Made by a program: the position numbers and the translations under genes. A stretch of DNA of 64,000 nt from a virus, in IMG/VR virus record IMGVR_UViG_3300010354_000045, positions 97,494 to 161,493 of that record. The stretch is one strand, 5' to 3'. The first letter of the stretch is position 1; each line of letters opens with the position of its first letter. This document shows positions 27,762-63,269 of the stretch, piece by piece. Below the pieces are notes generated by a model. That model was not told where the DNA came from. It worked only from the letters and a program-made list of their open reading frames with translations, and did not search any database.

Positions 27762-28754
27762 TTAAACTCCGTATTTGTTCTTCTTAGGTTTAGCTACTGG
27801 GCTTGTTTTATTTACGTCGGCTACTTCTTCGCTACGGTTCCCACTCCAGTTTTGTATAGTACCTGCACCAACTTGTTGAGCAGCCTTTTTAACCATCTCA
27901 AATTCTTCTTCTGTATATGATGAAAGTAAAGGGTCTCCGCCAATCCAATTATCAGCTTCCATTTTAGTTGGATAATCAGGAGCGCCTGCTAATGCAATTC
28001 CCATGCGATAATTCATATAAGCAGATCCTGTACTCATATTAAGTCCGGGTAATGTTGATGCATTTCTCATAGCAGCTTTTTGAGTAGGGTCCATAGGTTT
28101 CATCTTGCCCTTAGCTTCTGCTACTGCTGATTTCTTTTTATCAGGATACTTGTTTAAAAAATATGCAACAACGTCAAACACTGGTAATTCTCTACCTTCA
28201 ACTTCTAAAGTAACGCTGGGTTTAATGCCCATATCTTTATAAAATACTTCTCTATTACCAGATTTTGCTGCTGCCCGCAAATTAGTAGCACTAGCTAGTC
28301 TTTCAGTCTTAATCCAGTCAATTTGATTAAACTTGTACATACCATGCGGCTTGTCACTTGCACCATTATACTGTTGTAACGTTTTAATTAACCACTCTTC
28401 GTCTGTGTAGACTTTTAAATGAACATTTGATCCGTGTTCTTCATATATTCTACTAGCAAGTGTTAGTAGACTTTGTTCAGGGATAACATGCCCAGCAACT
28501 TGCGGCCATACTGCTGCCATGCATTGTAATTTAACATCATACGGTAATGGATCTTTAGGTCCACTAGTAGCTTCGTTTGTGCCCACAAACCATATAGGAT
28601 TTTTACTAGCTGCCTTCCATACTTCTCTGTGACCACGATGCGGAGGATTAAATCGGCCAAAACACACGCCAATAGTTTTCAAACTTCCGTCAAACTCTTC
28701 TCCGCCTTCAGGAACTGTTTCATAAATGTTTTCAAAAAGTTCTCTTAATCTCAT
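27762..28754 (-). CDS. NMNAT-like nucleotidyltransferase with extra N- and C-terminal regions
   Basis: About 330 residues from the ATG at 28754, which overlaps the upstream stop as ATGA (an ATG 8 codons earlier is inside that gene). GRFNPPHRGH at residues 33-42 is the (H/T)xGH nucleotide-binding motif of nicotinamide-nucleotide adenylyltransferases, and SATNLRAA matches their second (ISSTxxR-like) motif. The core is followed by ~130 C-terminal residues of unknown role. The enzyme would transfer an adenylyl group, possibly for NAD synthesis. A 30-residue N-terminal extension before the catalytic core, MRLRELFENIYE..., looks like a capsid-targeting peptide. Confidence 0.78.
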   Translation of the reverse strand: MRLRELFENIYETVPEGGEEFDGSLKTIGVCFGRFNPPHRGHREVWKAASKNPIWFVGTNEATSGPKDPLPYDVKLQCMAAVWPQVAGHVIPEQSLLTLASRIYEEHGSNVHLKVYTDEEWLIKTLQQYNGASDKPHGMYKFNQIDWIKTERLASATNLRAAAKSGNREVFYKDMGIKPSVTLEVEGRELPVFDVVAYFLNKYPDKKKSAVAEAKGKMKPMDPTQKAAMRNASTLPGLNMSTGSAYMNYRMGIALAGAPDYPTKMEADNWIGGDPLLSSYTEEEFEMVKKAAQQVGAGTIQNWSGNRSEEVADVNKTSPVAKPKKNKYGV

Positions 28755-29968
28755 GCTGCTGTTGCTCCTGGGGCCCAAGAAGTGGGGACTATTTTTATAT
28801 TACCATATTTATGATGTTTTTGTGCATAGCGAACATGTCCTTCGCTGTTAGTATCCCATATTTCTTTACGAGGCTGTTGCCTAATACCCGCATCTACCTC
28901 GTCTTTCATGTTTCTAATGCCTTTAATTAAAAAGAATATAGCATCTAGGCCACCGGGGTGTGCTTCAATCATGTTTAATATGTGCTGTTGTTTTTTACCA
29001 CTAACGCCTTTTTCTTTCATCCATTGCAAAAAAGTATTTCCCGAAATACTGTTAAAATCTTGTTTACCAGACGCATGTAAATTACTCATCTGATTAAAGA
29101 ATGGATAAAATATGCCATTCTTATCTGGATCTGGTAAACTAGATAGAAAGTTATCTACAGCAGGTCCGTGTTCATTAACATATGCAATCATTTCGTCAAT
29201 GGGACTAGTATCAATTTCTGGTGCAGTATCTGTATATATAGGACCTTGAACAATTAAACCTGGTGTTTGATTAAATTGACTAAAGTCATCCATAGGCTGT
29301 TGAGCACGATCAGGAGCACCAAAAGTTTCAAAATAAGCATGGCCTACCACCATTACCTGCGCCTGGCCTATTCGTGTTCCAAGTTCGCTAGCAGCATCTA
29401 CATGATAACAGGTGTTTGATTTAGGGTTTGGACAAAAAGTCCATACGCCTTTAGGATATTCTTTAGTTGGATTATCTAATCTTTTAGGATTTGCAGGTTC
29501 AACACCAAATAAATTGTCTGCATATACAAACCCTACAAAATCTTCAGGTGTAGCTGCATCAAATAAAGGATAAAGATTAGCAAAATTTGTTGCAAATTCT
29601 TGACGCTTTTTTGCATCTTCAGGAGTTTTAGGATTGCCACTTTTGTTAGCAATAAAATCGTATACTTCTTGAGGACTAGTGCCTTTAACCCCTCTACTCC
29701 ATTGGTTATGTCCTGCTAGTATAAGCGGTCCGCCCTTTTCTTCTCTGCCCCAATATACTTGAGGATTACCATCCCATTTACGTCTAATAGTTGTCTTACC
29801 TGGTTGTTCTTCTGCTATTTCTTTAAAGTGTCCTAGTGCTTCAAGTGTTCCTCTAGATCCTTTAAAAAATACAAGGTGTTCGGGATGATTGAAAGGTCTA
29901 CCATACCTTTCCATGCTGTCGTCTACGTCAGCATTAGCTTCACGAAAAAATAATTCACGTAGCAGCAC
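28751..29968 (-). CDS. DUF6267-like protein with KxDG ligase-type motif
   Basis: 405 residues, start codon GTG with AAGGA 7 nt upstream. The motif IRRKWDGNPQVYWGR (K64-W-D-G67) resembles motif I of nucleotidyltransferase-fold ligases and is the hallmark of the phage DUF6267 family. Residues 22-60 (HPEHLVFFKG...) also fit that family. Activity is unproven; the lysine could be adenylylated. The N-terminus MLLRELFFREANAD is a short amphipathic leader like those of other proteins in this block. It overlaps the NMNAT-like gene by 4 nt. Confidence 0.7.
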   Translation of the reverse strand: MLLRELFFREANADVDDSMERYGRPFNHPEHLVFFKGSRGTLEALGHFKEIAEEQPGKTTIRRKWDGNPQVYWGREEKGGPLILAGHNQWSRGVKGTSPQEVYDFIANKSGNPKTPEDAKKRQEFATNFANLYPLFDAATPEDFVGFVYADNLFGVEPANPKRLDNPTKEYPKGVWTFCPNPKSNTCYHVDAASELGTRIGQAQVMVVGHAYFETFGAPDRAQQPMDDFSQFNQTPGLIVQGPIYTDTAPEIDTSPIDEMIAYVNEHGPAVDNFLSSLPDPDKNGIFYPFFNQMSNLHASGKQDFNSISGNTFLQWMKEKGVSGKKQQHILNMIEAHPGGLDAIFFLIKGIRNMKDEVDAGIRQQPRKEIWDTNSEGHVRYAQKHHKYGNIKIVPTSWAPGATAA

Positions 29969-30412: not shown

Positions 30413-31054
30413 TTATTGTTTTTGCTTGACAATCTGTTCTATTTTAGCTATAGATCCACCTAAATGCATTTTAGCCATCAGAAGATTTTTTTCGCCTTTA
30501 ACATAAAAGTGAGTACCGCCCCAACTTTTATCTTTGCTAAGGCAAGTTTTGCAACTTTTTGTTATTTTTAAATTGTTACTATTTTCTGCCCAATTAATAA
30601 AAGCGTTATGATTTGTAGTAGTTCTACCTAATGTAACTTTATAGTCATAATCTCTTTTAGGCGAAATGATAGTATTTTTATCTAGTACTGTATCTACAGG
30701 CGGTAATGACACATACTTAACTCGATCTTTATCTATAGCTATTAGATTATTAATTTGATTTTGATCGCAAGTATAGACAGTTATATACGGTGATTCTACT
30801 CTAAGCTCGATATTTGTAAAATCTTTTATAACATTGTATAGTTTAAATGCGTAATCTAATTCATTTTGTGTTTTAGTTAAATTCCTATGCCCTATTAACA
30901 ATGATTTGTTATTAGGAGCTATTCTTACTTTTAGTAAATTTTGATAAATTAAATCAAGTTGATTGCCCCTAAAGCTAGAGGCAATTGCTGAAAGTAATAC
31001 TATTTTATAAGGATAAATTCCTCTATAAAGTTTTGTAGTTGTCTTATACAACAT
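30413..31054 (-). CDS. Hypothetical basic protein
   Basis: About 213 residues, strongly basic (Lys/Arg/Asn-rich) with KLYRGIYPYKIVLLSA near the start and a CKTC pair near residue 180. No domain recognised. I use the ATG at 31054; the frame could start at a TTG two codons earlier. It overlaps the ClpA stop by 11 nt, so it is probably co-translated with it. Might bind nucleic acid, judging only by charge. Confidence 0.6.
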   Translation of the reverse strand: MLYKTTTKLYRGIYPYKIVLLSAIASSFRGNQLDLIYQNLLKVRIAPNNKSLLIGHRNLTKTQNELDYAFKLYNVIKDFTNIELRVESPYITVYTCDQNQINNLIAIDKDRVKYVSLPPVDTVLDKNTIISPKRDYDYKVTLGRTTTNHNAFINWAENSNNLKITKSCKTCLSKDKSWGGTHFYVKGEKNLLMAKMHLGGSIAKIEQIVKQKQ

Positions 31055-33302
31055 TTTCAATAGCGTCTACAGTAAGTAACGGGACTTTAGTAATTTTAGG
31101 TTTAGCAGTTAATAAAATTTTATTATTATCAACAGATATAGTTACCCAGCCTCCATTTTTTAAATCCCCAAACAACATCATCTTAGCTAGGTCTCTTTTA
31201 ATTTCTTTGTCAATAATTCTAGCTAACGGCCTAGCTCCCATTTTAGGATCAAATCCTTTATCGATTAACCAGTTAATCGCTTCTTTATCGATCTTAATTC
31301 GAACAGCTTTTTCCTTAACTTGTTCTTTTAGTTCGTCGATAAACTTCACAACAACTTTGGCCATTGTTTCTTTGCCAAGTTTATTAAAAGTAATAATACC
31401 ATCTAAGCGGTTACGGAACTCAGGAGTAAAGAATTTGTTAAGTTCTTTGTCGCTATATTCTTTTTGTTGACTACCGAACCCAATGGCATTTTTTTCTGCA
31501 TCTTGTGCGCCTGCATTAGTTGTAAGGATTAAAACTAATTGACGGCAATCTGCACGTTTACCATTTGACCCAGTAACAAAACCATTATCCATCATCTGTA
31601 GCAAAATTGTTGCTACATCAGGATGTGACTTTTCAATTTCGTCAAACAACAGAACAGCATTTGGATTCTCTTGAATCTGTGTAATTAGCAAACCTGCGTT
31701 TTCTTCAAATCCAACATATCCAGGAGGGCTACCAATTAGCTTACTAACACTATGCTTTTCTTGATATTCACTCATATCAAACCGGATAAGTTTAACACCA
31801 AGATTTTTCGCTAGACTTTTTGCAGTTTCAGTTTTTCCACAACCAGTCGGCCCCATAAACACAAAACTACCAATAGGTTTATTTTCTGATTTTAGACCTG
31901 CTTGTGCAACAATGATCTTATCTACAACTTCTTGAATAGCTATGTCTTGTCCGTAAACTTCTGATTGAAGATTTTCTTGGAGTGATGCTAGATTACTACT
32001 TTCTGTTTCCATAATCTTTTCTTCAGGCATCTGAATCATTTTAGCTAGCTCATACTGCACTTCTTGTTCGCCAATAATTTTTTCAGTGCTCAGTTTAAGA
32101 TTAAATCTAGAACAAGCAAGATCAATCAAGTCAATAGCCTTATCAGGTAATTTTTTATCTGTTTGATATTTCACAGACAATTTAATTGCAGCTTGAAGTG
32201 CCTCATCTTTAATCTTAGTACTATGAAACTGCTCATAGTATTTTTTAATACCTTTAAGTATCTGTAATGTAACTTCTTGAGTTGGCTCGTCAACTGTAAT
32301 TCGTTGGAATCGACGCATCAAAGCACGATCCTTTTCGAAATGTTTACGATATTCTTCCCAAGTAGTTGAAGCAATAACCTTAATATTTCCTTTACTTAGT
32401 GCGGGTTTCATCATATTAGCAAGATCGTTAGCGCTATTACCTGCACTACCTGCACCGCTAATCATATGTGCTTCGTCAATAAACAAAATAGTCTTGCCTT
32501 TTTTCTGCAATGCTTTGAGGACAACTTTAAATCTTTCTTCAAAGTCTCCTCGATATTTGCTACCAGCAAGCATAGCACTAATATCTAAATTGTAGACAAC
32601 ATAGTCTTTAAGGAAATCCGGAACAGCACCCTTAACAATATTATAGGCAAGTCCTTCTGCTATAGCAGTCTTACCTACACCTGGATCCCCAACAAGAATA
32701 ACATTATTCTTGCTACGTCTACCTAAAGATAGTGCAATGTTTTCAAGTTCGTCAATACGTCCGATTACAGGATCAATTTTATTTTTCTTAACCTGTTCAT
32801 TTAAATTAGTAGTAAACGCATTTAGAGCTTTGTCGTTTCCAGGATTTGATTCTTCTTCTCCAGTTTCTTCAACTGAATTATTAATATATTCTGCAAATTT
32901 TTCTTTTTGTATATCGGCAGTGGTAATATAATAGTAAGCCCATGATCGTTTTTCGCTCATCATAGCAATAAAAACATCAGTGGGATCAATACGTTGACGA
33001 CCATTAAACAATACCTGTGTAAAAGCTCGATTAAGTACACGCTCTACACTTTGAGTTTTTTTAGGTTTAACTACAACGTCTTCAACAGTAATTTCACTAC
33101 ATTGATTTTGTAAATAGTTAGCTAAATTTTGTTTTAACTCATCGGCATTTGCACCAAATCCTTTAACACAATTGACAAAAGAATCGTCTAACAACATTGA
33201 AAATAATAAATGTTCAATTGTTAGATATTCGTGATGTAATTTTTTCGCCGTATCGATTGCTTTTTCAAATACTGCTTGCAAATTATCGCTAGGTTCAACC
33301 AT
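31044..33302 (-). CDS. clpA: ClpA-type AAA+ unfoldase, full length, with ClpP-docking motif
   Basis: 752 residues, nearly the length of E. coli ClpA (758). The N-domain (YLTIEHLLFSMLLDD) is followed by AAA+ module D1 with Walker A GDPGVGKT (205-212), Walker B ILFIDEAH (about 272-279) and arginine-finger region ALMRRFQ. Module D2 has Walker A GPTGCGKT (484-491), YVGFEENAG, and LLFDEIEKSHPDV. The IGF tripeptide (607-609) that ClpA and ClpX use to dock on ClpP is present. No middle coiled-coil of ClpB type exists. It should unfold proteins and could feed the host ClpP. A weak promoter-like TATAAT lies at 33329-33334. Confidence 0.95.
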   Translation of the reverse strand: MVEPSDNLQAVFEKAIDTAKKLHHEYLTIEHLLFSMLLDDSFVNCVKGFGANADELKQNLANYLQNQCSEITVEDVVVKPKKTQSVERVLNRAFTQVLFNGRQRIDPTDVFIAMMSEKRSWAYYYITTADIQKEKFAEYINNSVEETGEEESNPGNDKALNAFTTNLNEQVKKNKIDPVIGRIDELENIALSLGRRSKNNVILVGDPGVGKTAIAEGLAYNIVKGAVPDFLKDYVVYNLDISAMLAGSKYRGDFEERFKVVLKALQKKGKTILFIDEAHMISGAGSAGNSANDLANMMKPALSKGNIKVIASTTWEEYRKHFEKDRALMRRFQRITVDEPTQEVTLQILKGIKKYYEQFHSTKIKDEALQAAIKLSVKYQTDKKLPDKAIDLIDLACSRFNLKLSTEKIIGEQEVQYELAKMIQMPEEKIMETESSNLASLQENLQSEVYGQDIAIQEVVDKIIVAQAGLKSENKPIGSFVFMGPTGCGKTETAKSLAKNLGVKLIRFDMSEYQEKHSVSKLIGSPPGYVGFEENAGLLITQIQENPNAVLLFDEIEKSHPDVATILLQMMDNGFVTGSNGKRADCRQLVLILTTNAGAQDAEKNAIGFGSQQKEYSDKELNKFFTPEFRNRLDGIITFNKLGKETMAKVVVKFIDELKEQVKEKAVRIKIDKEAINWLIDKGFDPKMGARPLARIIDKEIKRDLAKMMLFGDLKNGGWVTISVDNNKILLTAKPKITKVPLLTVDAIENVV

Positions 33303-33352: not shown

Positions 33353-34198
33353 TTAAAGTTTTTGATTGATCTTTTTTAGTTCTTCAATAATATTTGGATC
33401 TGTTATCTTAGGAGTTTTAATTTCGACAACAGACACAAATCTTCCTCTTTGGTTTGTATTAAGATTAACAAACCCTTGCCCGTTGCTAGCATATTCAACA
33501 CCGGTCTCAACTCCTGGCCTTATATCAATCATCATAGTTTCACCAGTTATAGATTTTACTTGTTTACGACAACCAATAATTGCTTCTATTGGGTTAATGC
33601 TAATTTTAGTATACAAATCGTCTCCGGTTCTGGTAAAATCATTGTCTGGCATTACAAGAACAGTAACATTCAAATTTCCACGAGGCGCATTTGGAAAACT
33701 ATCATCACCTAGGCCCTGGTACCTTATAGTATCACCATGGTTGACGCCAGCAGGAATATTAACAGCAACAGTTTGAAATTTTCCGCTAGGCATTTGATAT
33801 TTTGCTTCCAACTGTTTACCTACATAAGAATCAAACAGACTTATTTGACATTGAATGTTTAAATCTCTATTTCTCCGCATACCACGTGCATGACCAAATA
33901 TATCTCCAAACGGACTATGCCCACCAAAATGAGCATTAAACATATCTTGGAAATGACTAAATCCTCCGTTTCCTGTATTAAAATGGAATTGTGTTCCACC
34001 GAACTGTCTTTGTTGGTCGTATTCGGCTTTTTTTTGAGGATCACTAAGAGTGTCGTAAGCTACACTAATATCCTTGAATTTAGCCTGATCGCCCCCTTTA
34101 TCGGGATGATGTTTGTTGGCTAAACTTCTGTATGCTTTTTTAATTTCGTCTGGGCTAGCTGATTCGCTAACACCTAAAATTGAATAATAGTCAGTCAT
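33353..34198 (-). CDS. dnaJ: DnaJ/CbpA-type J-domain co-chaperone
   Basis: 281 residues. J domain at residues 1-65 with HPD at 31-33; a Gly/Phe-rich linker (FGGTQFHFNTGNGGFSHF and beyond); and two beta-sandwich substrate-binding domains. The cysteine zinc finger of class I DnaJ is absent, so this is the class II form, as in CbpA. It would stimulate the host DnaK ATPase and bring clients to it. It lies 50 bp upstream of clpA and has its own promoter flanked by a 9-bp inverted repeat; the two genes probably share a transcript. Confidence 0.92.
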   Translation of the reverse strand: MTDYYSILGVSESASPDEIKKAYRSLANKHHPDKGGDQAKFKDISVAYDTLSDPQKKAEYDQQRQFGGTQFHFNTGNGGFSHFQDMFNAHFGGHSPFGDIFGHARGMRRNRDLNIQCQISLFDSYVGKQLEAKYQMPSGKFQTVAVNIPAGVNHGDTIRYQGLGDDSFPNAPRGNLNVTVLVMPDNDFTRTGDDLYTKISINPIEAIIGCRKQVKSITGETMMIDIRPGVETGVEYASNGQGFVNLNTNQRGRFVSVVEIKTPKITDPNIIEELKKINQKL

Positions 34199-40492: not shown

Positions 40493-41405
40493 TTAAATGA
40501 CTTAATCTAATTAAGGTTGCCGCAAGGTTAATTTCCGGATCGCTGACCAGTGTGTGATCAACAAGACCTTGCTTGATAATAAGAATAGCTTTGTCTTGAG
40601 TTTGTTCGTTTCCAAAAATGGCAATGTTGTCGTAGAGCCATCTATAAATTTCTTCCATCTCCTCTGGGCGAGCCTGACCGCAGACGAGCTTACGGGCTTC
40701 CGAGATTTTACCTTTTTTGAATAACTCAACCATTTCGAGTTTGTAATCTGCCTCACCGGCATCTCCTTTTTCTGGACTGTGTAATTTACCGTCCAAACTG
40801 TTCATTTGCACCATATTGATACATTTCCTTAAATCAGGATATGTGGCACGTACAAATGTATCTAGTGTGTCTAGTTCGAATTCAATATTTTCTTCTACAA
40901 GAATTGTTGCAACACGAGCTGTAAATTCATTAATATCAACTCGCTCAATATGGAAACCTTGACAACGAGAATGTAAAGCAGGAATGATCCGATTAGGATA
41001 ATTGCAAGTAAGAATAAAACGAGCAGTAGTATGATACTCCTCCATAACCCCGCGAAGCGCGGCCTGTGCATTTGGTGATAGATAATCTGCTTCATCTAAT
41101 AACACTATCTTAAAATTTCCAAAAGGAATCATCTGAACAAAATTGACAATCTTGTCTCTAACGTCTTCTACAGAGTTTGTGCGACTTGCATTAATTTCTA
41201 AAATATCTAAGGGATTAATATCTAGTTCATTAAACAAGATCTTAGCAAGGGTAGTTTTACCAATACCTGCATTACCACTAAACAACAAGTGAGGAATAGT
41301 TCCTTCTTTCACCCACCGATGTACTTGTTCTTTTTGATGTTCATCTCTAAAAACATAACCATCTAATGTCTTAGGACGATATTTTTCAACCCAAAGTTCT
41401 TTCAT
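40485..41405 (-). CDS. 44: Clamp-loader large subunit (T4 gp44-like)
   Basis: 306 residues (T4 gp44 is 319). Walker A GNAGIGKT (44-51), Walker B VLLDEADYLS, the sensor LTCNYPNRI and the RFC-box SRC motif (HSRCQGF) are present. It loads the gp45 clamp onto DNA with the small subunit gp62, which I do not see in the window. The start overlaps the stop of a 47-residue zinc-ribbon-like gene (ATGA). Confidence 0.95.
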   Translation of the reverse strand: MKELWVEKYRPKTLDGYVFRDEHQKEQVHRWVKEGTIPHLLFSGNAGIGKTTLAKILFNELDINPLDILEINASRTNSVEDVRDKIVNFVQMIPFGNFKIVLLDEADYLSPNAQAALRGVMEEYHTTARFILTCNYPNRIIPALHSRCQGFHIERVDINEFTARVATILVEENIEFELDTLDTFVRATYPDLRKCINMVQMNSLDGKLHSPEKGDAGEADYKLEMVELFKKGKISEARKLVCGQARPEEMEEIYRWLYDNIAIFGNEQTQDKAILIIKQGLVDHTLVSDPEINLAATLIRLSHLNG

Positions 41406-41545
41406 TTAAACCATCCTTTAATAATTTTCCAAAGATTAAGAAAGCGCATAGAATGCAAATTCACTGTTGCTGGGTGGTGTGGGCACCTTCCCTGTTGCCA
41501 ATCACAAGTGATAGTATATTCTTTGCCACAAGTTTGACAATTCAT
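41402..41545 (-). CDS. Small zinc-ribbon-like protein
   Basis: A 47-residue frame that fills the gap between the cytidylyltransferase gene and gp44. It starts at an ATG that overlaps the upstream stop (ATGA) and ends in an ATGA overlap with gp44. The protein starts MNCQTCGKEY and has further cysteines at 14 and 21 (CDWQQGRCPHHP), so a CxxC plus two cysteines can bind zinc. The C-terminus is basic and aromatic (KIIKGWFK). The tight overlaps on both sides are good evidence that it is real. It may bind nucleic acid or a replication partner. Confidence 0.8.
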   Translation of the reverse strand: MNCQTCGKEYTITCDWQQGRCPHHPATVNLHSMRFLNLWKIIKGWFK

Positions 41546-41970
41546 GGATTATCCTTATAAGTTTTTATTAACTCGGCATCGACTACTCTTTGCCTAAGCT
41601 CACTAGTTGAAAAAGAATGTCTTCTTTTGTTAAAATAAAATTCCATTGGAATTTTATGACCGGTGAATTCATTTTTCATATATTCTTCACCTAAAATTCT
41701 AACATCTATAGGATAAGAAAGTAATATATCTTCTAATTCTTTTTCCGTAGTGTAGGGTATAACTTCATCAATATATTTACAAGCCTGTAATTGCACAAAC
41801 CTTTCAAATACACTCTGAACAGGTTTGTTTTTTGTGTTTGGTCGATCTACGGTAGGGTCTGTTTGAAGCCCTACAATAAGATAGTCACATTGAGTTTTTG
41901 CTTCTTTAAGCATCATTATATGACCTGCATGAAACAAGTCAAAAGTTGAACAAGTAAATCCTATACGCAT
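41542..41970 (-). CDS. Cytidylyltransferase-like nucleotidyltransferase (TagD/RfaE type)
   Basis: About 142 residues from the ATG at 41970, where the protein begins MRIGFTCSTFDLFHAGH; the ATG 12 codons upstream is unlikely. FDLFHAGHIMML is the HxGH motif of the glycerol-3-phosphate cytidylyltransferase family, and RRHSFSTSELR matches the second motif (SSTxxR-like). It would attach CMP or AMP to a small phosphorylated substrate, in lipid or sugar synthesis. It has a near-perfect promoter whose predicted start site falls at or near the ATG. Confidence 0.82.
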   Translation of the reverse strand: MRIGFTCSTFDLFHAGHIMMLKEAKTQCDYLIVGLQTDPTVDRPNTKNKPVQSVFERFVQLQACKYIDEVIPYTTEKELEDILLSYPIDVRILGEEYMKNEFTGHKIPMEFYFNKRRHSFSTSELRQRVVDAELIKTYKDNP

Positions 41971-47621: not shown

Positions 47622-49430
47622 TTATTGTAGTTGTTCAATTGTACAGTATGCTTCACCTGCTATTCCAACACCAGGCATTTCGTCTGCTATTACAGTCACT
47701 CTATAAATTTTATGAAAGGTCTGATCGGTAACGGTAAAACTTAAACTATTGCCCGGAACAGAAAGATTGCCAACGTTATCCCAGGTAGTATTACCAGCAG
47801 TTTTAGTTGTAAAGCCGGAATAAATGTTTAGAGGAGTTGGATATGCCCTATACACACTTATGCTTCTTTGCCCCCCAGCATTGCTGTATTTTAGTTCTAC
47901 ATCAAGCGTATTACTGTTATTTGTTAGCCTAACAGATAAATCACCTCTTGTTGCTGTAACCTGTCCTACTACTATTACGCTTGATCCGTCATGTTCATTT
48001 GTTATTCCCGGATAAGCAGTAGTCTGCACAGTTGAATCCGGAAATGTTAGGTTACCATTATTACCAAATGTCCAAGTATATAAAGTGCCTCCTCCTACAG
48101 TTGACATTGGAGTAATTTTAATATTTCCATTGTTGTAAAAAATATTAAAAGCATTGTTCATTCCATCATCAACTGTGTTATTACCTTGCGTAAAGATATA
48201 ACCGTTGGTGTTGTTTGCATGGGGGAATACCGCAGCAACCTGTTTATTGTTTTCCGCCAGAGGAAACTCTAAGTATGCTCGAGTAAATGTTTCTCCAAAT
48301 TGATCTATTCTAAAGTTAAATTTCTTATCGCTAGCATCGTCAGCGGGAGTAATTTTTACAGTTCGACCCGATGGTCCTCCTGGTCCTGATACTATTGAAC
48401 CGTGTAGTTCGCCCGGCAATGTTAAATTTCCAGCTGTGCTAAATGTCCAAGTTTTTGTAGTTACTCCTGATACTGTATTAATTGTTAAGTTATTACTGCT
48501 AGGTGATATAGTCGCATTATTGGCAAAAGTTATATCACCGTTAGCTGAACTATCAAATATTAGCCCGCCTAGAGTGTTGATATCACCACCAAACTTACCG
48601 CCACTTTCTACAACTAACCATCCAGGAAAGCTAGTGTTTAATCCGCCGTTGTTTGAAGGCAATGATGATCCTACAAATAATGAACCTTCAATTTGCACAC
48701 TCATATTACCAGTTCCATTTGCTCCAAATGTAAACAACGAGTTGGTTGAAGTTTGTGTTACTCTGTTCCTATATACACCACTTATATCGTCACCTAAAAC
48801 ACTAGCCGAACCTGACCAATAATAAGAACTTGAACCGCCAGCAATAACTAAGTTTGAGTTATCTCCGATGAATAAAGTGTTAATTGTAGGATTTGTATCA
48901 AGAACTAATGTTGAATTATTACCAGTAGTTGTTGTAATATTATTTGAATTTATTTGAAAAACATTACCTTGACCTGGTTGAATATTAATAGTTTTATTTG
49001 TAAATGTAGCCGAAGAAGATGCCGTTAAAATTGTTTCCCATGAAGTAGTACTACCGTTAGTAAATAAAAATTTTCCTGCGTTGTTTAGTTGTGAAGGCAA
49101 TTCTAAAGGCAACACGTCCCAAGAAATTGCTGTACCATTGGTATATAGATATTTTCCAGAATTACCTGAAACAGAAGGAATAGAATTAGTTACTGAGGCA
49201 ATTAATTTATTATTAGCATCGTCATAACTAAATGTAATTCCGGTATGACTAGCATGATTTAATAACGGTGCTGCATAATCTTGAGCAATTTCAGTTAATT
49301 CTGCTACAGTTCCTCCTACTAACGCATATAACTCGTTAAAATTAGAATTAGTTTTAGAAAATGCAGTTCGTAAAGGATCGCCGCTTTTATCATTAGCGGC
49401 TGCTCCAATGTTAATTGTTTGTTTAGCCAT
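47622..49430 (-). CDS. Tail fibre protein
   Basis: 602 residues. Begins with the shared segment INIGAAANDKSGDPLRTAFSKTNSNFNEL. The body repeats beta-rich phrases such as GNLTLPGEL and GNLTFPDSTVQTTAYPG, typical of fibre shafts in marine T4-like phages. The C-terminal ~130 residues are distinct and may be the receptor-binding head. Its start overlaps the stop of the giant fibre gene by one base (TAATG). Confidence 0.78.
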   Translation of the reverse strand: MAKQTINIGAAANDKSGDPLRTAFSKTNSNFNELYALVGGTVAELTEIAQDYAAPLLNHASHTGITFSYDDANNKLIASVTNSIPSVSGNSGKYLYTNGTAISWDVLPLELPSQLNNAGKFLFTNGSTTSWETILTASSSATFTNKTINIQPGQGNVFQINSNNITTTTGNNSTLVLDTNPTINTLFIGDNSNLVIAGGSSSYYWSGSASVLGDDISGVYRNRVTQTSTNSLFTFGANGTGNMSVQIEGSLFVGSSLPSNNGGLNTSFPGWLVVESGGKFGGDINTLGGLIFDSSANGDITFANNATISPSSNNLTINTVSGVTTKTWTFSTAGNLTLPGELHGSIVSGPGGPSGRTVKITPADDASDKKFNFRIDQFGETFTRAYLEFPLAENNKQVAAVFPHANNTNGYIFTQGNNTVDDGMNNAFNIFYNNGNIKITPMSTVGGGTLYTWTFGNNGNLTFPDSTVQTTAYPGITNEHDGSSVIVVGQVTATRGDLSVRLTNNSNTLDVELKYSNAGGQRSISVYRAYPTPLNIYSGFTTKTAGNTTWDNVGNLSVPGNSLSFTVTDQTFHKIYRVTVIADEMPGVGIAGEAYCTIEQLQ

Positions 49431-52400
49431 TATAGTCTCCCTACGGCAATTTGAATTACTCCGGCTTCGCCGTAGTCTTTATCTTCTAAGGCTTTACCAA
49501 TAATGCTACCTAGTGTTGGATTAAGAGCTTTTACGGCATAACCTGGTGTAGCACTAGTAGTTAGCATGTCACCTTTCTTAACCCTGCCAACTACTTTACA
49601 TGGAACTCGACCAGCTAGCGCTAAACAGACTTTTTGTCCTTTCTGATCAGTGTTCATGATATAAGCAGGGTTAGTTGTAACCACGCCAGCTGCTCTAGTG
49701 TCATTAATAGTTTTAGTAGTTGTAACTTCTTTGTCTCCACCAAACACTAGTACAGATCCGGGTTCATATTCTTGATCACCTTCATAATATTCTGCTAAGT
49801 CAGCATAAGTAGCCTGCAATGTACTAGAACCTACTAATGACCAACGTCCAGTTATTTGTCCAGTAGTTGATTCATCACCTGTAGTAATTGACTTAACTTT
49901 TAGAACGTTGTTATTAGCTGCTAAATCTAAACTTGAATCTGCAGATAGTGTCCATTGACCTGTTAATGTTGCTGCTGAACCAGTACCAGTAGCAGCACCA
50001 CTAGTTAGTTGCTTAACTGTAATTTTTGAATTAGTATCAATAACGCTTAAATTACCTTTTACTGTAACTGTAGTGTTATTTTCATCAGTTCCAGTAGCAG
50101 TAGCAAAATTATATGTACCAGGTGTATAAAATTCTACAGTTGTGGCAGTAGCATCAAGATCAATTACTTTTTTGTCGTCAACTTTAAGATAAGCTACATC
50201 AATTCCACCATTAGTATCAGTTTGCAATAATTTACTACTTTCTCTTGTAGTAGTGTATCCTAATGTAGTATATGTATTTGCATATCCGGTTAATGTAGTT
50301 CCAGCCTCATTAGCTCCATTAGTTGCAGTGCTTAATACTAGTACACCGGCACTGGTGAATAATGAGTTTTGCAGACCATTACCATTTTTAACCACATCAG
50401 ACATGGTAACACCAGTAGCATCAGTTAACGCTGTATTAGTTTTATTACCTAATACAGTATCTTTGGCAACTTGTTCTATTTTACTAAATGCAATACCGTT
50501 TGTTTTAAGTTGAACCCATCCTTGAGCATTTACTGTAAATTCACTGCTATTGAATGTAGATAAACCCAAGTCTGCTTGAACAATGGCACCACCAGTACCT
50601 GTACCACCATCTACAGCTCTTGCACTAGCTACAGTCATGCTCAGTTTGCTCTGCACAATAGCTGCTGTAGTAGACACCATTGCATTAGTAATTTTATTAT
50701 TTTGGATAGCACTAGTAAACACACCTGTTGCACTGTTGTAGGTTAACAGTACATCACTAGTATTGCTATCGCTTGGTAAAGTTACATTACGCCACTTAGT
50801 AGCAGTAGCAGTTCCAGATAACCCACTTAGTGTTGTAGAAGCAGTGCCAACAAATGTTACTGTTGTAGTACTGCAAGTTAGAACAATCTTTTCTCCATTA
50901 TATGAAGCTGAACCGCTACCTGCTCCTACCCCTGAAACAACTATAATAGAACCTACAGCAAATGGAGCACTTGCTTGTATGTTAAACCATAGAGTAGAAA
51001 CAGTTCCAGTACCTTGTGCATTGGTAATTGTTACCTGAGTTTGATTGTCGTAGACAGCAATTTGTCCATTTGCTGGATTTACAAATTCTGTATCACGTAA
51101 TTCTCTAAACTGATCAAATGCAGCAATTTGACTATCAACATAATCTTTAGTAGTTGCATCAGCATTTTCTGTAGGAGTACCAAGCTGTGTGATCTTAAAT
51201 GCACCCATAACCATGTTACCCTTCATAGAAAGGGCGCCATTAAGTGCCATAAATCCTGGACCAATTAAATTGCTAACAGGCAAAACACCACCAGAATGAT
51301 CTAGTCCAAGACGTTTGTCAATGTATCCTCTAACAGCAGATTGTGTTGAAACTGTGTCTGGTGCATTATTAGTCATTGAACTATCGGTTGAAAATTCACT
51401 AACAACAACACCTCGTTTAAATCCTAAGCCGTCTAAGTTACTCAACGCAATTGAAGCACTGAATGTAACAGTTCCAGTACCTTGGTCAACTGTAAAGAAT
51501 CGACCTACACGGAAAATACCGTTTTGGTCAGTTGTAACATAGAATACACGGCCTACACCATCTTCTTTAACTTCATTTTGTGGCTGACGACTTTGTGCAG
51601 GATTACCATAAATGGTATATGGATAGTTTGTAGTCGAGTAACTTCCAGTACCGATGTCTAAGAAGTCGTGTCCGCTTGCACGGCAAGTACTAATTCTAAC
51701 AGTAATTTGACCGGTAGTATCTGCAGGGTAACCTAATCTTAAAGTTGAACTGGTGCTAGTATTGAAAGGTATACCTAAACCGCGTTTATTAGTTGTAGCA
51801 TTAGTTGGATCATAGTAAACTGAGGCAGTACCTGCAAATGTTCCTGGGTTAGAAGGATATCTAACTACTAATGTTGTATTGTTAGTATTAGTAGCAGTTG
51901 CTTGATAGAATCCGTTATATAGACTATTACTACTGTTGCTAATATAATACCAATTGCCTAAAGTGCTGGTAAAATTAGCACCTAATGTAAATGTAACTAG
52001 ATAACTTACTGTACCGTTAATGGTTGTGCTAGCAACAGGTGCTGCTGCTGAGTTAATGGTAACAGTGGTAGGAACTCCGTAGTCTGGACTATGATAAGTC
52101 ATTGTGCCAGATAGTGTTCCACTGTTAACAGGAACAAATACAGTGCCTGCCACACCATTAGATATTGTAGCACTTACAGTAATATTTTTATTAGGTCCAT
52201 CAATAGTCTTAATATAGTAAGTAACACCAGTTACAATGTTTCCAATATCACTTCCTGTTGCTGTCTTGTAGAATATAATTCTGTTATTAACATCTAGCCC
52301 AGTTACGGAATCTAATGTAATAATATTACCACTATTTGCCACCTGAACTAAGTTTCCAGTAACACCAGGATCTCTTGGGTAGTATATAGATATATTTCTA

Positions 52401-55400
52401 GTTGTTATACCACCAGTGGATGTTACGGCGTTAGTTGCTGTAGCACTCATTACCGCAGTTAGTGCTGTGGTAACTTCTACATTGTTATAAAATAACTTAA
52501 CACTAGGTGCAGATGTATATCCAAATCCTGGACTAATAATTGTCCATCCAGTAATTGTGTAAACGTTACCAGCAGTAATCTGTGTATTTGCTTTTACTCT
52601 ACCTTGTACTACAGTTCCGGCTGTACCTCCAGTAGTCACAGTACCAATTCTTACTTCTAATAAACTAGGATCAGCAAATGTAGTTGTAGGTAATGAACCA
52701 GCTATACTAGTAATATAAGCATAGATTGTAGCAGTAATAGTAGTACCTGAAGGTATCCAACATGAAGGACTTACAGTGATAGTTTTAGATATAGGGTCTA
52801 TGCTTTGAATAATTGTGCTAGGTGGAACTATTGCACTAGGTGCTGCGCTGCTAACAATCATGCCAACAACTAGACCGTCTACACTAGGAACAGCAACAAC
52901 AGTTTGATCTGTTACACCCGATATTTGATAATATCCATTATAAGGTGTAGCTAGGGTGTTTCCTTGAATATTAACATAACTATCTACAACAGGAAGTACA
53001 CTGCCGTTTACAGTATTACCAAATGGTATATCAAATGTTACAATTCTACTACCGCTAGAAGTACCAGCTACAGACGATGTATAAGTTAATGCACTAATGC
53101 TATTGCCTTCAGAACTGTTGTTGTCTATAGCGTTAGGATCTAATCTTAAATAACCTGTATAAGCAACTCCAAAAACAAATGGTGCATTACCTACAGAAGG
53201 AAGCACCGTTGGTGTTGCGCTAAATGTAACTTCATATGTAAGCACGCCGCCAACTAATCCAGAAGTCACATTAGTAACTGTAATAGGATTTGATCCGCTA
53301 TCAACAAACTGTACTAAATTGCCTCCACTGGTATATTTGATTATGTCGCCTATTTCTATATTACCAGTTACAACTTGAACTCTTAACTTATTTGTACCAA
53401 CAATACCCCAATCAACAAAAGTATTAGCACTAGCTATAAATTGAGGAACAACGTATTCTTTAACTCTAAATACTCTTCCTCCCCAACCTACAATATAAAT
53501 TCCTTTGTTAATTTGATTTATAATACTAGATTGAGTTACTTCAAGCACAGATACTTTATCGTCTCCAGGTAATGATCCTTGAGTTTTAGTAGAAAATGTT
53601 ATTACAGCATTTGTTGTTGGCACGCTGCTAGGAGGTTTACTTAATACTACAGTCCAATTGCCTCCTCCTCCTGTAGCACTGACAACAAACTGTCCAGTAT
53701 TAATACCACCAGACTCGATCCAAACTCCCATTCCTTGTGTAATAGACCCAGTGGCGTTAGACACGGTAATTGTTGTACTGCTTACACTAGCACCTGCATT
53801 AATAGTAGCTGTTACTGGGGTTATGGCAGGATCTGGTTTAACTATATTAGAAACATCTACAATAAATTTATAGTAATCAAATGAACTGTCACTTTCTAAA
53901 ATAGCAACGTTAGACGGAAGTATTTCACCTGTGGAGTCTGCTAGTCCATATGCTAAAATTCTATAGATATCAGCAAGGTCTTCATTATATTGTAAAGCTG
54001 TACTTGGTCTAGTTGGATTTACGTTAGCAATGCCGTTAAATTTATTTTTAGTTAACGTTCTAATTGTAATTTGCTGTCCGTTATACAGTGCTCTTGCAAG
54101 TCCAGTACTTGATGTTCCACTATTACCTGTAGTACTTAGGTTAAGTTTTAAAACACTTTTACCGTTTATTGAAACTGTTGTGTATTCAACAGATTTAACT
54201 TCATATCTAACTATACCTACGGTTGAGTCTGCAATGCTGTGATCAATTTCTAATTCACTAGATCCCATTGGGTTGTAAGAATAGTCTGTTATATAAACAA
54301 ATAAAGCCTGCTGGGTAGCAGTAGGAGTCATCTCATTGCCAAATATACCTTGTTTGTATACTCTAGCAGTTTGGATCATATTATTTGCTAAACTAACTGC
54401 ATCTGGTACTTCAGTTACATCATAACCGCTAGCTCTTAATCCATATGTTCCGTGAGCATTTGATCCTGCTACTGATCTAATTTGACCACCGTTATTTGAC
54501 CAATAGTGAGTATGGCAGTAATAGGTAAATGTTGAAACTTGTTCTGATACAGCACCGTTGGTACAAACAATGGCATAACCTAAGTCATTAATCATAGCAA
54601 AATCGTTTGCTAACATTGACTTGTTACCACCCATTTCAATATTAATTAATAAATCAGCTCCGTTATTAAGATAACTTATTACACTAGACTGTGTAGTTGA
54701 TTTATTAGTATCAATAGTAGTCCTTGCAGTTTTTAAACCGGTGTCATAGGTATAGGTTACGCCGGCATATCCTGTAGCACCTGTTGCAACATCTGGATAA
54801 GTTACTACAGGTCTAATGTTGAATACTAGTCCAGTAGTAGTTGAATTTGAAGTTGTAATTGCCTGACCGTTTGGAATTGCAGATAGTGTAAAACTGGTAG
54901 TACCGTTTGTTGCTATAATATAATAAGTTTGTCCAGATGTTACACCAGTTACGTTACCAGTTAACGTTCCTGTGACATGTACATACTGTCCTAAATATAA
55001 TGTGCTACTGGTGCAAGTAAATTGTCCAGAAGTTCCTACACAGGTAACAGATGATAGCGTAGTTGCAGTAAATTGTCCGTCATTTACATAATCAATAACA
55101 TTATCAGATAAAGTATTTAATTTTGTCTGTACTGCTGTTAATATAGCACCGGCAGATGGTGCGTTAGTTGTTATTTGATTTTCAGTATTTCCAGCAGTTA
55201 TTGATATTGATGTTCCGGCTACAATATTACCTAATATAGCCTTTAGTCTAGTAAATGCTGATTGATACACAGACTCTAAATTAGTTCCAAACAAATTGGT
55301 GTTTGTTGTCGGATTTACATATAAATTTCTATAATAGAAAGATTCGGCAACATTTATAGTTTGGCTGTTACCTCCATAATATATGTCATAAATGAAAGCA

Positions 55401-58400
55401 TTTAAAACATTAACCACATAGTTCTGTAACGTGGTTGCTTTATATGCTGGATAGCTTTTTAATATAAATGTATCAGCTATATAAGCTGTAATTTCATTTT
55501 GAATAAATGTTCTATTGGCAATTAATATATCTCTTGCTTTATTAAGATTAGTATCAGAACCAGCAGAAGGTGTAGGATACGTAATTGCCGGAGAACCGTT
55601 AATTCCTTGATCCAATATAGTAGTAATAGTGTCAAATCTATTAATGATAGCAGTATCAATTGCATTATTAGCACTAACACTAGCAACTGTAATTCTAAAG
55701 CCAGTGCCACTTCCTCCTAAACTAGCATTTGATGCAGTTAAAATATCGCCAACTTTATAATTGCTACCTCCTAGTGTAACACTTACTGAAGTAACAACAC
55801 CATTATTAACGTCTATACTAGCAGTTGCACCAGTTCCTTTAACAGAAACAGTGTAAGGTGTTAATGGCACATTTGGATAAGTTTGAATTCCGCTAGCCGG
55901 TGCATAATTAGATCCACCGACTAAACTACTGTTGTTCAGTGTTAATAATGATCTATAGCCGGTATTTGTTTGTAGTAGTGCAAGATCTCTTGCTTTTTGA
56001 ATACCAGCAATAGTAGAAGTTTTTTGTCCTCCTACAACATTAGTTGCTGATGATCGTTGATATGCTAGACCTGCTGTAATAGATTGATAATTCGAGCCAG
56101 TTACAATATCATATCCTACAGCATCTAAAATATATCCAACATCTCTACTGCATTTAACATTATTATATGAACCTAACGCATTATAAGGAGTATCAACGTT
56201 CATAGTAACAACAACTGTTCTAGTTGTTGGATCGTGACTAACTATATCGTCAATTTGATATCTGTACCCGCTTACATAAAATGCACAAGGCGGCTGTGGT
56301 GGCCTAAAATCTAATCCGCTGTTAGCGTCGCCTACAATAGTTACGGTTATACCATTACCATTTCCATTAACGGCTTGTACTCCAATAACTCCTCCGCCAG
56401 CAATATTTGTAAGACCTGGAATTGTTTGCCCAACAGTGTCAATAACTAACAGATCGGCAAATTTATATCCCTGTCCCGCTGATGTAATTGTTGCGGCGGT
56501 AATAGTAGTTCCGACACCAGCTGTTCCAATAGTAATAGTAGCTACTGCACCTATACCTGTAACATTTGAATTAGCGCCTGTTAGTTTAACGTTAGTGTAT
56601 ATTCCTGGAGTGTATCCAGATCCTGCGGTTTGGATATTTAATGACTGTATGCCGTCATAGACAATATTTGTAATAAATCCTTTTAGTCGACCTGCAAATC
56701 CGTCAACAAATTGACCTCCAGCAAATCTCTTATTGTTGTTTGATTGGCTAAATGACGAACAAACTTGCCCGTAAGGTGATTTAGTTTTAATCTGACCTTC
56801 AGGATCAAGTACCATAGCAAATCCGCCGTGGCCTTGTATAGTGACGTTGTTTACTCTAACTGCGTCGTTACATAAGAACACATCAATATCTTTGTTATTT
56901 TTAGCAGGACTATTAACGTCTAACGGATTAGTTAGATAATGTCTAGCATAATTAATTCCGTCGTATAGTTTCCAATTTGGAGATGCTACTGTGCCTTTAT
57001 TATAAAACGGATAGATAACAGAGCAGTTCATAAAGTTACCGCTGATACTATCAATTGTGGCTTTACCGACTCTTGATTCACCTATAGCAGTACTTCCTTG
57101 ATCTACATAAGATACTTGTAAAATTTTTCCAATCCATGTACTTGGCACTTGACCTGTGCCTAATGTAATGACTATTTGATTTGTAGTTCCGTCTAATGTA
57201 ATAGATGAAGTATTAGCATAGTTTGTGCTAGTATCTATTAATCCAATTTGCATAGCGTCAATAACTGCATCTCTATAGAAGAAAATCTTTCTCCAAGGCG
57301 ATTGTGAAATTCTGTCTCTAGGACGAATAATTGTTCTACGGAATTCGTCACCTTTAATAGATACGTTGTTAGGTAGACGAATTGGATAGTCTTCGTAATA
57401 AATTCCGCTTTCAACAAAGATTGTTATGTTAGTTGCTTGTACAGTTTCACCAAACTCTATTTGTTCACCTACTCCGCCAACACCCATACTGTTAGTAACA
57501 AAGAATCCTGGTTTTGTTTTTCTTACTTCGATAACGTCAACTGAACCAGTTCCGCCTATATTACCAGGAGTGTATTTTACAATTGATGCATAAGCATTTG
57601 AAGTAAACCCAACAATGATCTTAGCTGGAATAATATCATTATTGCCAGCTTTACCTTGATCAACAGCACCAGTTCCGCCGTTAGTTACACTGACTTTCCA
57701 GATACCGGTTCCAAAAGATGATACAGGCGCCGCACCAATTCCGTTGTTTATGATATTAATCATAATATCCATGTTATTACTGAATGTTGTAATAGCTGTG
57801 GAATTTGTATTATAATCACCAGATACACCAGTGATACCTATTAATGTTGTAGGTAGTGTTCCTACAATACTGGTAATTTGCGGCACAAGTATTTGATACC
57901 TTGAAGCAGATGATTTGTTTAGAACTTGTATTGCTAAGGCATAGGTAAAATTAATACCGTCAAGAGTTTCAGAATACTGTGTACCAATAGCTATGGCTTT
58001 TGCGCTAGAATTTTTGTAGTAACTCTTACCAGCAAAAATACTCTGATAAGTTCCCCCAGTAATCAAATCAATGCTCATAGCATCAATGATCAATCCAATG
58101 TCTCTATAACACAGAGATTCGTCATAGGCAAATCCGCCAGTAAATGTAGTGTCTAAAAAGACAATAGTATCATTAGCTACTGTAGTCTTGCTAGCAACTA
58201 TATCTGTTTTAGCAGAAAGTTTTGTTGAATTGTAGCCAACATCAGACGGATATACAATAGTAGGAACGTTAGTTAAACTATTTAAAATAGCTTTAACGGT
58301 ATTGAATCTATCATTAATAGTTGTTGAAGCACTAGAAGCCAGTGCATTACCTGCAATATTATTTTGTCTAACTCTTGTATTGTTTGTAGTAATTCCTAAA

Positions 58401-61400
58401 GATCCACTTGCAGTACTTGAAGCGTTAAATGCTGCACCTACAGTATTTGTACCAGTGTTGTAAGTAGCAAGTGTGATTGTAGTAGAAGTTACGCCAGTGA
58501 TAAAGTAAGTGGTATTATTGGCTAATCCACCAAAAGATCCGCTAACCGATGTAGTTATAATATTACCAACAACAAATTTTCCAGTGATAGGAGGTACGAT
58601 TGTTACAGTGCTGCTGTTTAAGGTAGTTCCTGTAATAGTAGCTGTAATAATGGTTAACGGTGAAATTAAGACAGTTTCTAATACATTAGTAGAACACTTA
58701 ATTGCTAAATCTTGAGCCTTGTCTAGAACGTCTGATATATAATCTCGGTCAACACCTGCTGGCCAAGAACTGGCAGCATTAACCCAAAATTGTTTAGCAA
58801 TATCAACAGTGGCTACATTACTGGTAGTAGTGCCGTATGTAATATCATAACTAATAGCACTTATTACTCTTTTAACTATTCGTTTAACATTTTCTCTACC
58901 AAGAGTAGTACCTAATGTACCGTATGTATATGTTGGATTATCTGCTTCACCTTTAGCTACAGCTTCTGCCGCAATAAAATCCAAGTTAGCTTGTAATCCT
59001 AATCTTGCATAATCAAATGCACTAGTAGGAGCACCGTTTGGATTTGTATAAGTTGGATATTGAATATTCTGATTGGTAATTCCCAAAGTTAATATATCTA
59101 TGATAACTTGGAATTTATTATTAATTGCTGTTAATACTCCACTATCGCTGATGACAGGATAAGTTAAGTCAACGAATGAGTTAGCATTAGTCTTATATGT
59201 TGTAGCATTAGTAACAGTCATAGCTGTTCTAATATTAGCAGTAGTTCCAGCAGGTATAGTCGGATTAACTACTGCAATGACACTGTGCTGATTAACAATA
59301 GCTACAATACTATTAATGTTATTAGTTATGGATGTTGAAACTGTACCACCACCAGCTAATGATTCATTTCTATATTGTCTGATAGTCTGTTGATAGACTA
59401 TTGCAGGACTTGTGTTTGTAATAATAGCTTGAGCTAAGGTATTGATATATCCTATCATCGATACAACGGGTTGTACTTCGATATCTTCTATGGTCCTAGT
59501 AGCACCGTTCCAATAGCTGTTTCCAACATAAACGCTTTCTTTATTGCCACCATACATAAAGTCAAACACTAAAGATTTGATAATTTTATCTATATCTGCT
59601 TTGTATCTTACTCGGTCGTACGGCAAATTAGGATATTCTGATGAAAGATATGCAATTAGTTCTGCTTGTATAAAATTAATGTTTTCAATCAACAATGTCT
59701 TGGCATTGATTTGACCAGTTGTTGTCGCCGGAACTGTTCCGTAAAATAATTCTGGAACAGTGCCATTTTTTATTAAATTAATTATAGTAGCAAAACTATT
59801 TTTAATAGTTGTTTGGATACTAGAACTGTTAACTACATCTGGGATGTTTAAAATAGTATTAGGGGTAGTTGTACTTCCTAGTAGATTGTTAAGAACAGCT
59901 TCAATTTGACTAGTAGTTAACGCAGTACCAGCAGATGAGAATTTGTGACCTGCACTAATACTTTGATAATTTGAAGAAAATACAAGATCATAAGATACTG
60001 AATCTAATATAACATCTATATAAGAATTTAATCCGGTAGAGCTATATGCAAATCCTAAAACTTGGTCTCTAGCAAATTTAATAGCTTCAATTGTTTGTGT
60101 TAGTTGTCCCGGCAAAATTTTAGTACTGTCTTCATTAAAATATCTTGCGCCAGCATTAAAACTATTGTATGTTGTATCAAATACTAGATCATTAGCTACT
60201 CCTTCTACAGCAGCTTGAATATCTACATTATATTTTGCCTTATCATATGTAAATGTATTAACATATTTGTTATTGATATATGCAATAGTTTCTGCTTGAA
60301 TAAATGTTTTATTAGCTTGTAATAAGTTGTAAGCAGCCTGATAAGGTATGCTTTGAGAATTGCCATTTACTAATTGCACACTGCTAATAGTACTAAATGT
60401 TTGATCTGGGCCTATAGTATAAGCAATTCTTTGGCGATAAGGTCCTGGTTCTTGGCTAGCTAAAGTTATTAAATTTTCAGCTGCTAGAGCCGCAGCACCA
60501 ATTGATCGATAAGCATACTGCCAAAATCTTCCTTCTTTTCCGGGAGGAACTTTTGTTTGTAGATCGTCGCCTGATGTAGTTACAAACAGATTAACATTAC
60601 TTGAGAATGTATTATTGTCAACATAGTACTTTGTTGCTGCTTGAAGGTCGTCGGCGCTTGTTTGTATGCCGGCACCAGCCAACGGAGCAGGATGATCTGA
60701 CAAATATAATTTGCCAGTCATGGTGTCGCCGCCTCTGTAGACTACATTTTTTCTTGGTAATACTTCTGTTGATAGATAATTGCTAGTTAAGGCTCCGTCA
60801 TAATCTGGATCTGAAGTTTGTCCACTAGTTGGTTCTTCTCTAGCTCTTAAAGCATCTGGAAGATAAAATTTATTATTAGTTAAATTTTTCTCTTTAATTA
60901 CGTATCTATTGTCAGCATATCCTTTTGGTATAGCAAATGAATCTGTTGTTAATAAATTTGTTCCGTGTACATTATTATATAAATTTAAATTTGTAGTGTT
61001 TGGTTCGCCTACATTTCCTAATGCTAGGCCAGAAGAGTTTAGTGGTGCACCTAACGTTGGTTTAGTATCGTCATTGAGTTCACCTACAGTAGCTGAAATA
61101 GTAAGCTGATCGTCGCTGTTGTAATTAATACTAATACCAGCACCAGCAGTCATAGTTCTAGCTGACAGTCTACTACCTAACCCATTGGCCATAATAAATT
61201 GATTTGGATCGTACGCCGGTCTTGTTCTTGGATTAGTTGGGCTAATGGGTAATGCTGGATTTTGAGCTTTTAACGGAGTATCACCTAAGTCAGTAAGACC
61301 AATTACCCCGTCTACTCCAAAAACAGCATAGATTTCATTAAAGTTTTCATTAACTTTACGGAATGATTCTCTAATACTGTCACCAGTACCGTCGTTACCC

Positions 61401-61432: not shown

Positions 61433-61434
61433 TA

Positions 61435-61758
61435 TTAAACTCCAAAGCTCGAACCGCAACCGCAAGTAGTAGTTGCATTAGGATTTTTTATTGTAAATGA
61501 ACTGCCCATTAAATCATCTTTATAATCTATCTCTGCACCTTGCAGATATTGCATACTCATTGAATCTACTAGTACTCGATAAGACTCTAATGGTATAGAA
61601 AAGTCATCTTCTGCTTGTTCTTCGTCAAATGTAAATCCGTAACTGAATCCCGAACAACCGCCGCCCTGAACAAAAGTCCTTAAAGCTAAATTGGGATTCC
61701 CTTCTTCATTAAGTAAATCTATAATTTTTTTCTTAGCAGATTCTGATATAGTCAGCAT
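61435..61758 (-). CDS. erpA: ErpA/IscA-type iron-sulfur carrier protein
   Basis: 107 residues, the family size. The three cluster cysteines are conserved: C35 in [11 protein letters not shown] and C99, C101 in the C-terminal CGCGSSF. The run [32 protein letters not shown] is typical of ErpA. It would accept and deliver Fe-S clusters, for example to radical SAM QueE (inference). A GATAAATA late box lies 18 bp upstream, so this is expressed late. The giant fibre gene starts 2 bp after its stop. Confidence 0.93.
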
Positions 61759-63088: not shown

Positions 63089-63269
63089 AATTTATTTTTT
63101 TGTTATTTTTTTCAATTTCGTCTTTAAGACGTAACTTTTGTTTTTTAAGTTCTTCAACTTGAATGTCGTCTGCTCTTGACAAGTATAATTGATTAATTCT
63201 TTTGTCTAGCTCGTCGTGTTTTTCTTTTAGACTTTCAACATAATGAATTAGTTTCTCTCTGGTAATCAT
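63087..63269 (-). CDS. DUF465 (YdcH-like) small protein
   Basis: 60 residues from the ATG at 63269, which overlaps the UvsE stop as ATGA; the frame extends further but that part lies in uvsE. HDELDKRINQLYLSRADDIQVEELKKQKLRLKDEIEK is the DUF465 helical hairpin found in many proteobacteria. Function unknown. Confidence 0.75.
   Translation of the reverse strand: MITREKLIHYVESLKEKHDELDKRINQLYLSRADDIQVEELKKQKLRLKDEIEKNNKKIN

Follow-up and report, generated by a model that had tools for sequence, protein, structure and literature searches.

A full-length viral ClpA with a conserved ClpP-docking tripeptide, probably the motor of a ClpAP protease encoded by the phage

The window analysed here, a stretch of 64,000 nucleotides from a large aquatic phage (positions 97,494 to 161,493 of IMG/VR record IMGVR_UViG_3300010354_000045), encodes a complete ClpA without a ClpP, raising the question of which protease, if any, this unfoldase serves. 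The original prediction considered such a protein unexpected in a T4-like phage and proposed host ClpP as its target. Overall, the full ClpA with a conserved docking tripeptide stood up to our analysis, whereas the other two points did not: phage ClpA is widespread (PHROG 4871, many jumbo phages), and relatives of the window encode their own ClpP, accompanied in a 345-kb relative by ClpS and DnaK. Our preferred reading, to which we assign a probability of roughly 0.75, is that this ClpA serves as the unfolding motor of a ClpAP protease owned by the phage.

A complete ClpA and its docking loop

The clpA gene (31044-33302, minus strand) starts with ATG, closely preceded by a purine-rich AAGGA, and encodes a protein of 752 aa consisting of an N-domain, the AAA+ modules D1 and D2, and a D2-small domain (Clp_N, AAA, AAA_lid_9, AAA_2 and ClpB_D2-small in a Pfam profile search). 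TIGR02639 (ClpA) was the top NCBIfam model, covering residues 6-723 in a single stretch (profile positions 3-733/734) with 883 bits, which falls short of the NCBI equivalog cut-off of 993 bits; judged by its sequence, the protein is a divergent ClpA of the viral clade, outside the orthologues of the cellular equivalog set. Residues 6-734 match PHROG 4871 (‘ATP-dependent protease’, 4.7e-250), residues 12-732 align with E. coli ClpA (PDB 1KSF, E ~3e-200; 6W1Z aligns as well), and identity to cellular ClpA is ~45% over the full length. The coiled-coil middle domain of the ClpB/ClpC type is absent between the modules, since ClpB and ClpC align only as two separate pieces while the ClpA match is unbroken. 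TIGR02639, Pfam and the 1KSF alignment thus bear out the original prediction of a full-length, two-module ClpA at this position. Both ATPase modules are complete (GVGKT, FIDEAH, KYRG and RRF; TGCGKT, FDEIEK, GYVG and NRLD), and Walker A and B motifs, pore loops (GYVG; K/R-Y/F-RG), arginine fingers and sensor-2 are conserved in 85 viral ClpAs. The median dN/dS of 0.029 over 23 unsaturated pairs indicates that clpA is under strong purifying selection.

The tripeptide IGF (residues 607-609) takes the place of IGL in the alignment with E. coli ClpA, in agreement with its original assignment to ClpP docking, and because solved ClpA homologues align by sequence, the position of the loop is already placed. 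Lack of IGF conservation among close relatives had been named beforehand as one of the results that would speak against the prediction, and the opposite was observed. IGFG (residues 607-610; codons 31473-31484, minus strand), the predicted tip of the docking loop, is invariant in 81 out of 81 close sequences, comprising the window and 80 viral ClpAs about 78-86% identical. All four IGFG codons vary synonymously in this set, Gly608 being encoded by all four glycine codons, and the flanking sites 606 and 611 are hypervariable (entropy 1.9 and 2.2 bits); K604, N605 and Q612 are likewise invariant. Conservation of IGFG, as read from this alignment, exceeds chance expectation. Among 85 broadly sampled viral ClpAs, 79 retain [ILV]GF, the six exceptions being 121Q (IGM), RaK2 (IGV), Vibrio 2.275 (IGV), GAP32 (LGM), L194 (IGM) and R16F (QGM), the last of which is the only one of nine jumbo or large isolates without any PF00574 match.

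Gene neighbourhood and origin

Upstream of clpA, and ending 50 bp before it, lies dnaJ (33353-34198, minus strand), encoding 281 aa with a J-domain including HPD and a DnaJ_C domain (PF00226 and PF01556; CbpA-like layout), in which no zinc finger was found. We collected 148 distinct viral loci and scored the 111 with at least 1.5 kb upstream of clpA; 110 of these carry dnaJ directly upstream. As the loci were picked for resemblance to the ClpA of the window or of PA5oct, this ratio describes the corresponding portion of the viral clade. While dnaJ abuts clpA in 38 loci (-16 to +81 bp), a peptide deformylase gene (pdf) sits exactly between the two in 72 out of 110 (e.g., L053, L009 and L147, but not the window), identified by PF01327 profile confirmation in four records and by motifs. 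Among isolates, Atu_ph07 and PA5oct show the order dnaJ-clpA and Phosso dnaJ-pdf-clpA, and the dnaJ-clpA arrangement was not found in RaK2-type phages, Vibrio 2.275, 1.170.O and R16F. In the 41 cellular loci checked (including some ClpC-type genes), neither dnaJ nor pdf was found beside clpA, and 30 of them have clpS there. Phage ClpA is thereby tied to DnaJ, and often to peptide deformylase, by a gene order kept across very divergent viral ClpAs.

On the other side, orf215 (30413-31054, minus strand; 213 aa from ATG) encodes a phage-only protein, its start overlapping the end of clpA by 11 bp, and follows clpA in 80 out of 80 closest loci. A sequence search of the phages collection returned no match, and a pattern scan of viral contigs returned a single locus, orf215 being too divergent for that method. 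A fold search with its AF2 model (pLDDT 90) found nothing in the PDB at E<=0.001, and its viral fold matches are uncharacterised phage proteins, including a distant one in Atu_ph07. Elsewhere in the window, the ORF at 49430-61465 encodes 4011 aa, is probably tail-associated as suggested by a baseplate-like neighbour, and has a much shorter counterpart (~1670 aa) in G001, the closest relative of the window.

A tree of 32 viral ClpAs and 20 cellular ones, with two ClpC sequences as outgroup, recovered the viral sequences as a single clade (SH-aLRT 98) and the cellular sequences as one group (87). FastTree with 125 rows agrees on this split, with the exception of Vibrio 1.170.O and R16F, which belong to neither side; cellular sampling was chiefly from Pseudomonadota, so that the rooting of the viral clade is provisional. 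Database matches to ‘Acinetobacter phage MD-2021a’ were set aside as bacterial (argC, pyrG and clpS surround clpA on the contig), as were the IMG/VR loci L151, L154 and L163, which nest among cellular ClpAs in the tree.

The missing clpP and the likely partner

No gene for ClpP, ClpS, DnaK or peptide deformylase was found in the entire 161,493-bp record, so that the claimed absence of ClpP and ClpS from the window was correct even beyond its limits, although the record is an incomplete fragment, of which the window is the last 64 kb, ending exactly at the record end. Seven out of 12 close-clade contigs encode ClpP 30-52 kb upstream of clpA (distances calculated from contig ranges), and the window holds only 30.7 kb of sequence upstream of clpA. 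The window is collinear gene by gene with G001 as far as the last gene of the record, a PHROG 8420 endonuclease (63266-64000, minus strand), and in G001 clpP (41016-41642) is located ~11.5 kb past the gene matching this one (28502-29554). Read against these relatives, contig truncation short of the clpP position is the best explanation of its absence from the window. Five close-clade contigs are without ClpP: two have less than 7 kb upstream of clpA, two have 38-40 kb, where truncation is likely judging from distance alone, without synteny, and G006 has 49.7 kb and breaks off inside the gene preceding clpP in G009. In the relatives, clpA and clpP do not share an operon and lie tens of kb apart. 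A partner gene missing from a metagenomic fragment gives no ground for inferring host dependence.

Among the nine isolate records, ClpP is plausible in seven (Atu_ph07, Phosso, PA5oct, 121Q, RaK2, Vibrio 2.275 and GAP32), and the same seven encode ClpS. The PF00574 match of Vibrio 1.170.O (46 bits) was not taken as ClpP, being annotated as ‘coil containing protein’ and missed by the E. coli ClpP query. The wider viral set comprised 27 contigs, all fragments, with ClpP in 12 and ClpS in five; ClpP was not found in the long, incomplete relatives G027 (195 kb), G029 (188 kb) and G030 (270 kb). Within the close clade, G008 (345 kb) encodes clpA, clpP, clpS and dnaK on one contig. At 300190-302915 of G008, dnaK is followed shortly downstream by clpS, a pair that is also close together in G028.

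The phage ClpPs look functional from their sequences: the Ser97-His122-Asp171 triad is kept in all 26 extracted, the top PDB matches of the G001 ClpP are bacterial ClpPs, and docking-cleft positions are mostly hydrophobic in the ClpPs of the window clade. At cleft position 112, where E. coli has Phe, five ClpPs of the close clade have Lys; this could weaken the predicted ClpA-ClpP docking, the strength of which cannot be read off sequence. ClpP history is more mixed than that of ClpA, and the ClpP tree does not neatly track the ClpA tree. The ClpPs of G001 and G003 (L110/L111) are 83-88% identical to window-clade ClpPs over residues 5-95, and over residues 100-190 they are 44-48% identical to these and 81% identical to another phage ClpP type (L207), which suggests mosaic proteins with an exchanged C-terminal half. 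The ClpP-like proteins of 121Q, RaK2, Vibrio 2.275 and GAP32 (L246-L249) keep the triad, and three of them are annotated as ‘head maturation protease’; their genes are set among nucleotide-metabolism genes, and those of 121Q, RaK2 and Vibrio 2.275 adjoin dCMP deaminase or DNA ligase. No capsid genes lie alongside in the stretches examined, and the label may be wrong.

That a ClpP-less phage docks its ClpA on host ClpP, steering host proteolysis to phage-chosen targets, would suit a 161-kb record without ClpP or ClpS as well as the window tripeptide, since IGF is found in 21 out of 30 sampled Pseudomonadota ClpAs (IGL in two more) and should fit a bacterial ClpP. We nevertheless regard this as unlikely: the record stops short of the relatives' clpP position, ClpP is present in every relative whose contig reaches that place (seven contigs), and the ClpA tripeptide diverges alongside a divergent phage ClpP in 121Q (IGM), RaK2 (IGV) and GAP32 (LGM). 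Because the relatives encode their own ClpP and the window record is truncated, phage ClpP appears the more likely partner. Docking on host ClpP is conceivable too, and both may occur.

A stand-alone unfoldase or remodelling chaperone, acting with DnaJ in virion assembly or replication and carrying the ClpP loop as a relic, is quite unlikely. ClpA and DnaJ/DnaK are both able to remodel P1 RepA, which fits such a role, as does the tighter linkage of clpA to dnaJ than to clpP. A virion-related role has been proposed for jumbo-phage ClpA (PMC7824862), and clpA adjoins virion genes in RaK2, 121Q, GAP32, Vibrio 2.275 and PA5oct. However, a relic loop would be expected to drift, yet IGFG is invariant between hypervariable sites, and ClpP co-occurs in relatives. 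A recently captured host clpA, an accessory gene without a phage-specific role, is highly improbable despite the ~45% identity to cellular ClpA over its full length that could be quoted in its favour, because the viral ClpAs cluster together, separate from the cellular ones sampled; the phylogeny, proposed originally as a check for descent from the host group, thus gave no sign of recent capture. The order dnaJ-(pdf)-clpA, seen in none of the 41 cellular loci, 30 of which have clpS in that place, and the strong purifying selection on clpA likewise argue against it.

In a phage-owned ClpAP protease, clpP would lie in the full genome beyond the contig end, as in the relatives, and ClpA hexamers would dock on phage ClpP by placing their IGF loops in its hydrophobic clefts, then feed it unfolded proteins. 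ClpS, often encoded by those relatives whose sequence is sufficiently long, would deliver N-degron substrates to ClpA wherever it occurs, and phage DnaJ, from the same gene cluster, would pass non-native clients to DnaK or ClpA. Our guess is that the likeliest clients in an infected cell would be phage proteins that are misfolded or in surplus, together with certain host proteins. Several points weigh against this main reading: clpP is predicted from relatives and is not seen in the record itself, clpA and clpP lie tens of kb apart, the long contigs G027, G029 and G030 show no ClpP, five close-clade ClpPs have Lys at cleft position 112, and the ClpP and ClpA trees do not match neatly. More tentatively, and with considerable doubt, the lineage may long have possessed a dedicated pathway for quality control of nascent proteins, built on a dnaJ-(pdf)-clpA core that was not seen in the sampled bacteria. 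Besides DnaJ and ClpA, it would comprise ClpS and ClpP, with a peptide deformylase in many members and DnaK in some, and would deformylate proteins, inspect them and degrade them in the infected cell without host adaptors. If the main reading is true, large phages operate their own ATP-dependent protease during infection, and phage ClpA, so far named in genome papers with no partner assigned, gains a testable assignment to phage ClpP via a docking loop under selection.

Comparison with known systems

Phage ClpA itself is already known, and it is the dnaJ-(pdf)-clpA order and phage ClpP as a partner that appear undescribed in the literature searched; a dedicated search, which covered few subscription journals, gave no match for a phage-encoded ClpP or a dnaJ-deformylase-clpA module. 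A survey of jumbo phages (PMC7824862) notes ClpA, ClpP, ClpS and DnaJ separately, suggesting that ClpA acts in virion assembly or in translocation and that phage ClpS works with host ClpAP. A close parallel is the Agrobacterium jumbo phage Atu_ph07, which like the window has dnaJ (gp293) directly before clpA (gp292) and the tripeptide IGF, and unlike the truncated window record encodes its own ClpP and ClpS. It differs further in a ClpA of 40% identity, in being a 490-kb phage of another lineage, and in having no orf215-like gene beside clpA by sequence. Excerpts of its genome paper (PMC6102473) list ClpX, ClpA, ClpB, ClpP, ClpS and DnaJ and call ClpA highly conserved in RaK2-like phages, and in these excerpts the Clp genes are not described as a conserved module.

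RaK2, 121Q, GAP32 and PA5oct share with the window a full-length ClpA (PHROG 4871) in large T4-related phages and have genes for a ClpP-like protein and for ClpS at other genomic positions, but the RaK2 group differs in its tripeptides (IGM/IGV/LGM), its divergent ClpP-like ‘head maturation protease’ and the lack of dnaJ beside clpA. Moraphages, large and mostly freshwater aquatic phages whose core gene set includes ClpA (VOG02072, 24 genomes; PMC12619734), encode ClpA and DnaJ as in the window, and sometimes DnaK; their description mentions no ClpP, and no dnaJ-clpA linkage was found described in it. The T4-related phage RB43 likewise has a DnaJ-type protein, its J-domain protein being reported to bind host DnaK (Perrody 2012, as cited in PMC12619734), and that citation claims no ClpA linkage for it. 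For a Sinorhizobium jumbo phage, the gene listing in PMC11242549 places deformylase gp154 beside DnaJ gp155, without comment there. Finally, bacterial ClpAPS, represented by E. coli ClpA (1KSF/6W1Z), has the same domain layout, motifs and docking loop as the window ClpA, from which it differs by an identity of only ~45% and by genomic context, bacterial clpA usually lying beside clpS and phage clpA beside dnaJ.
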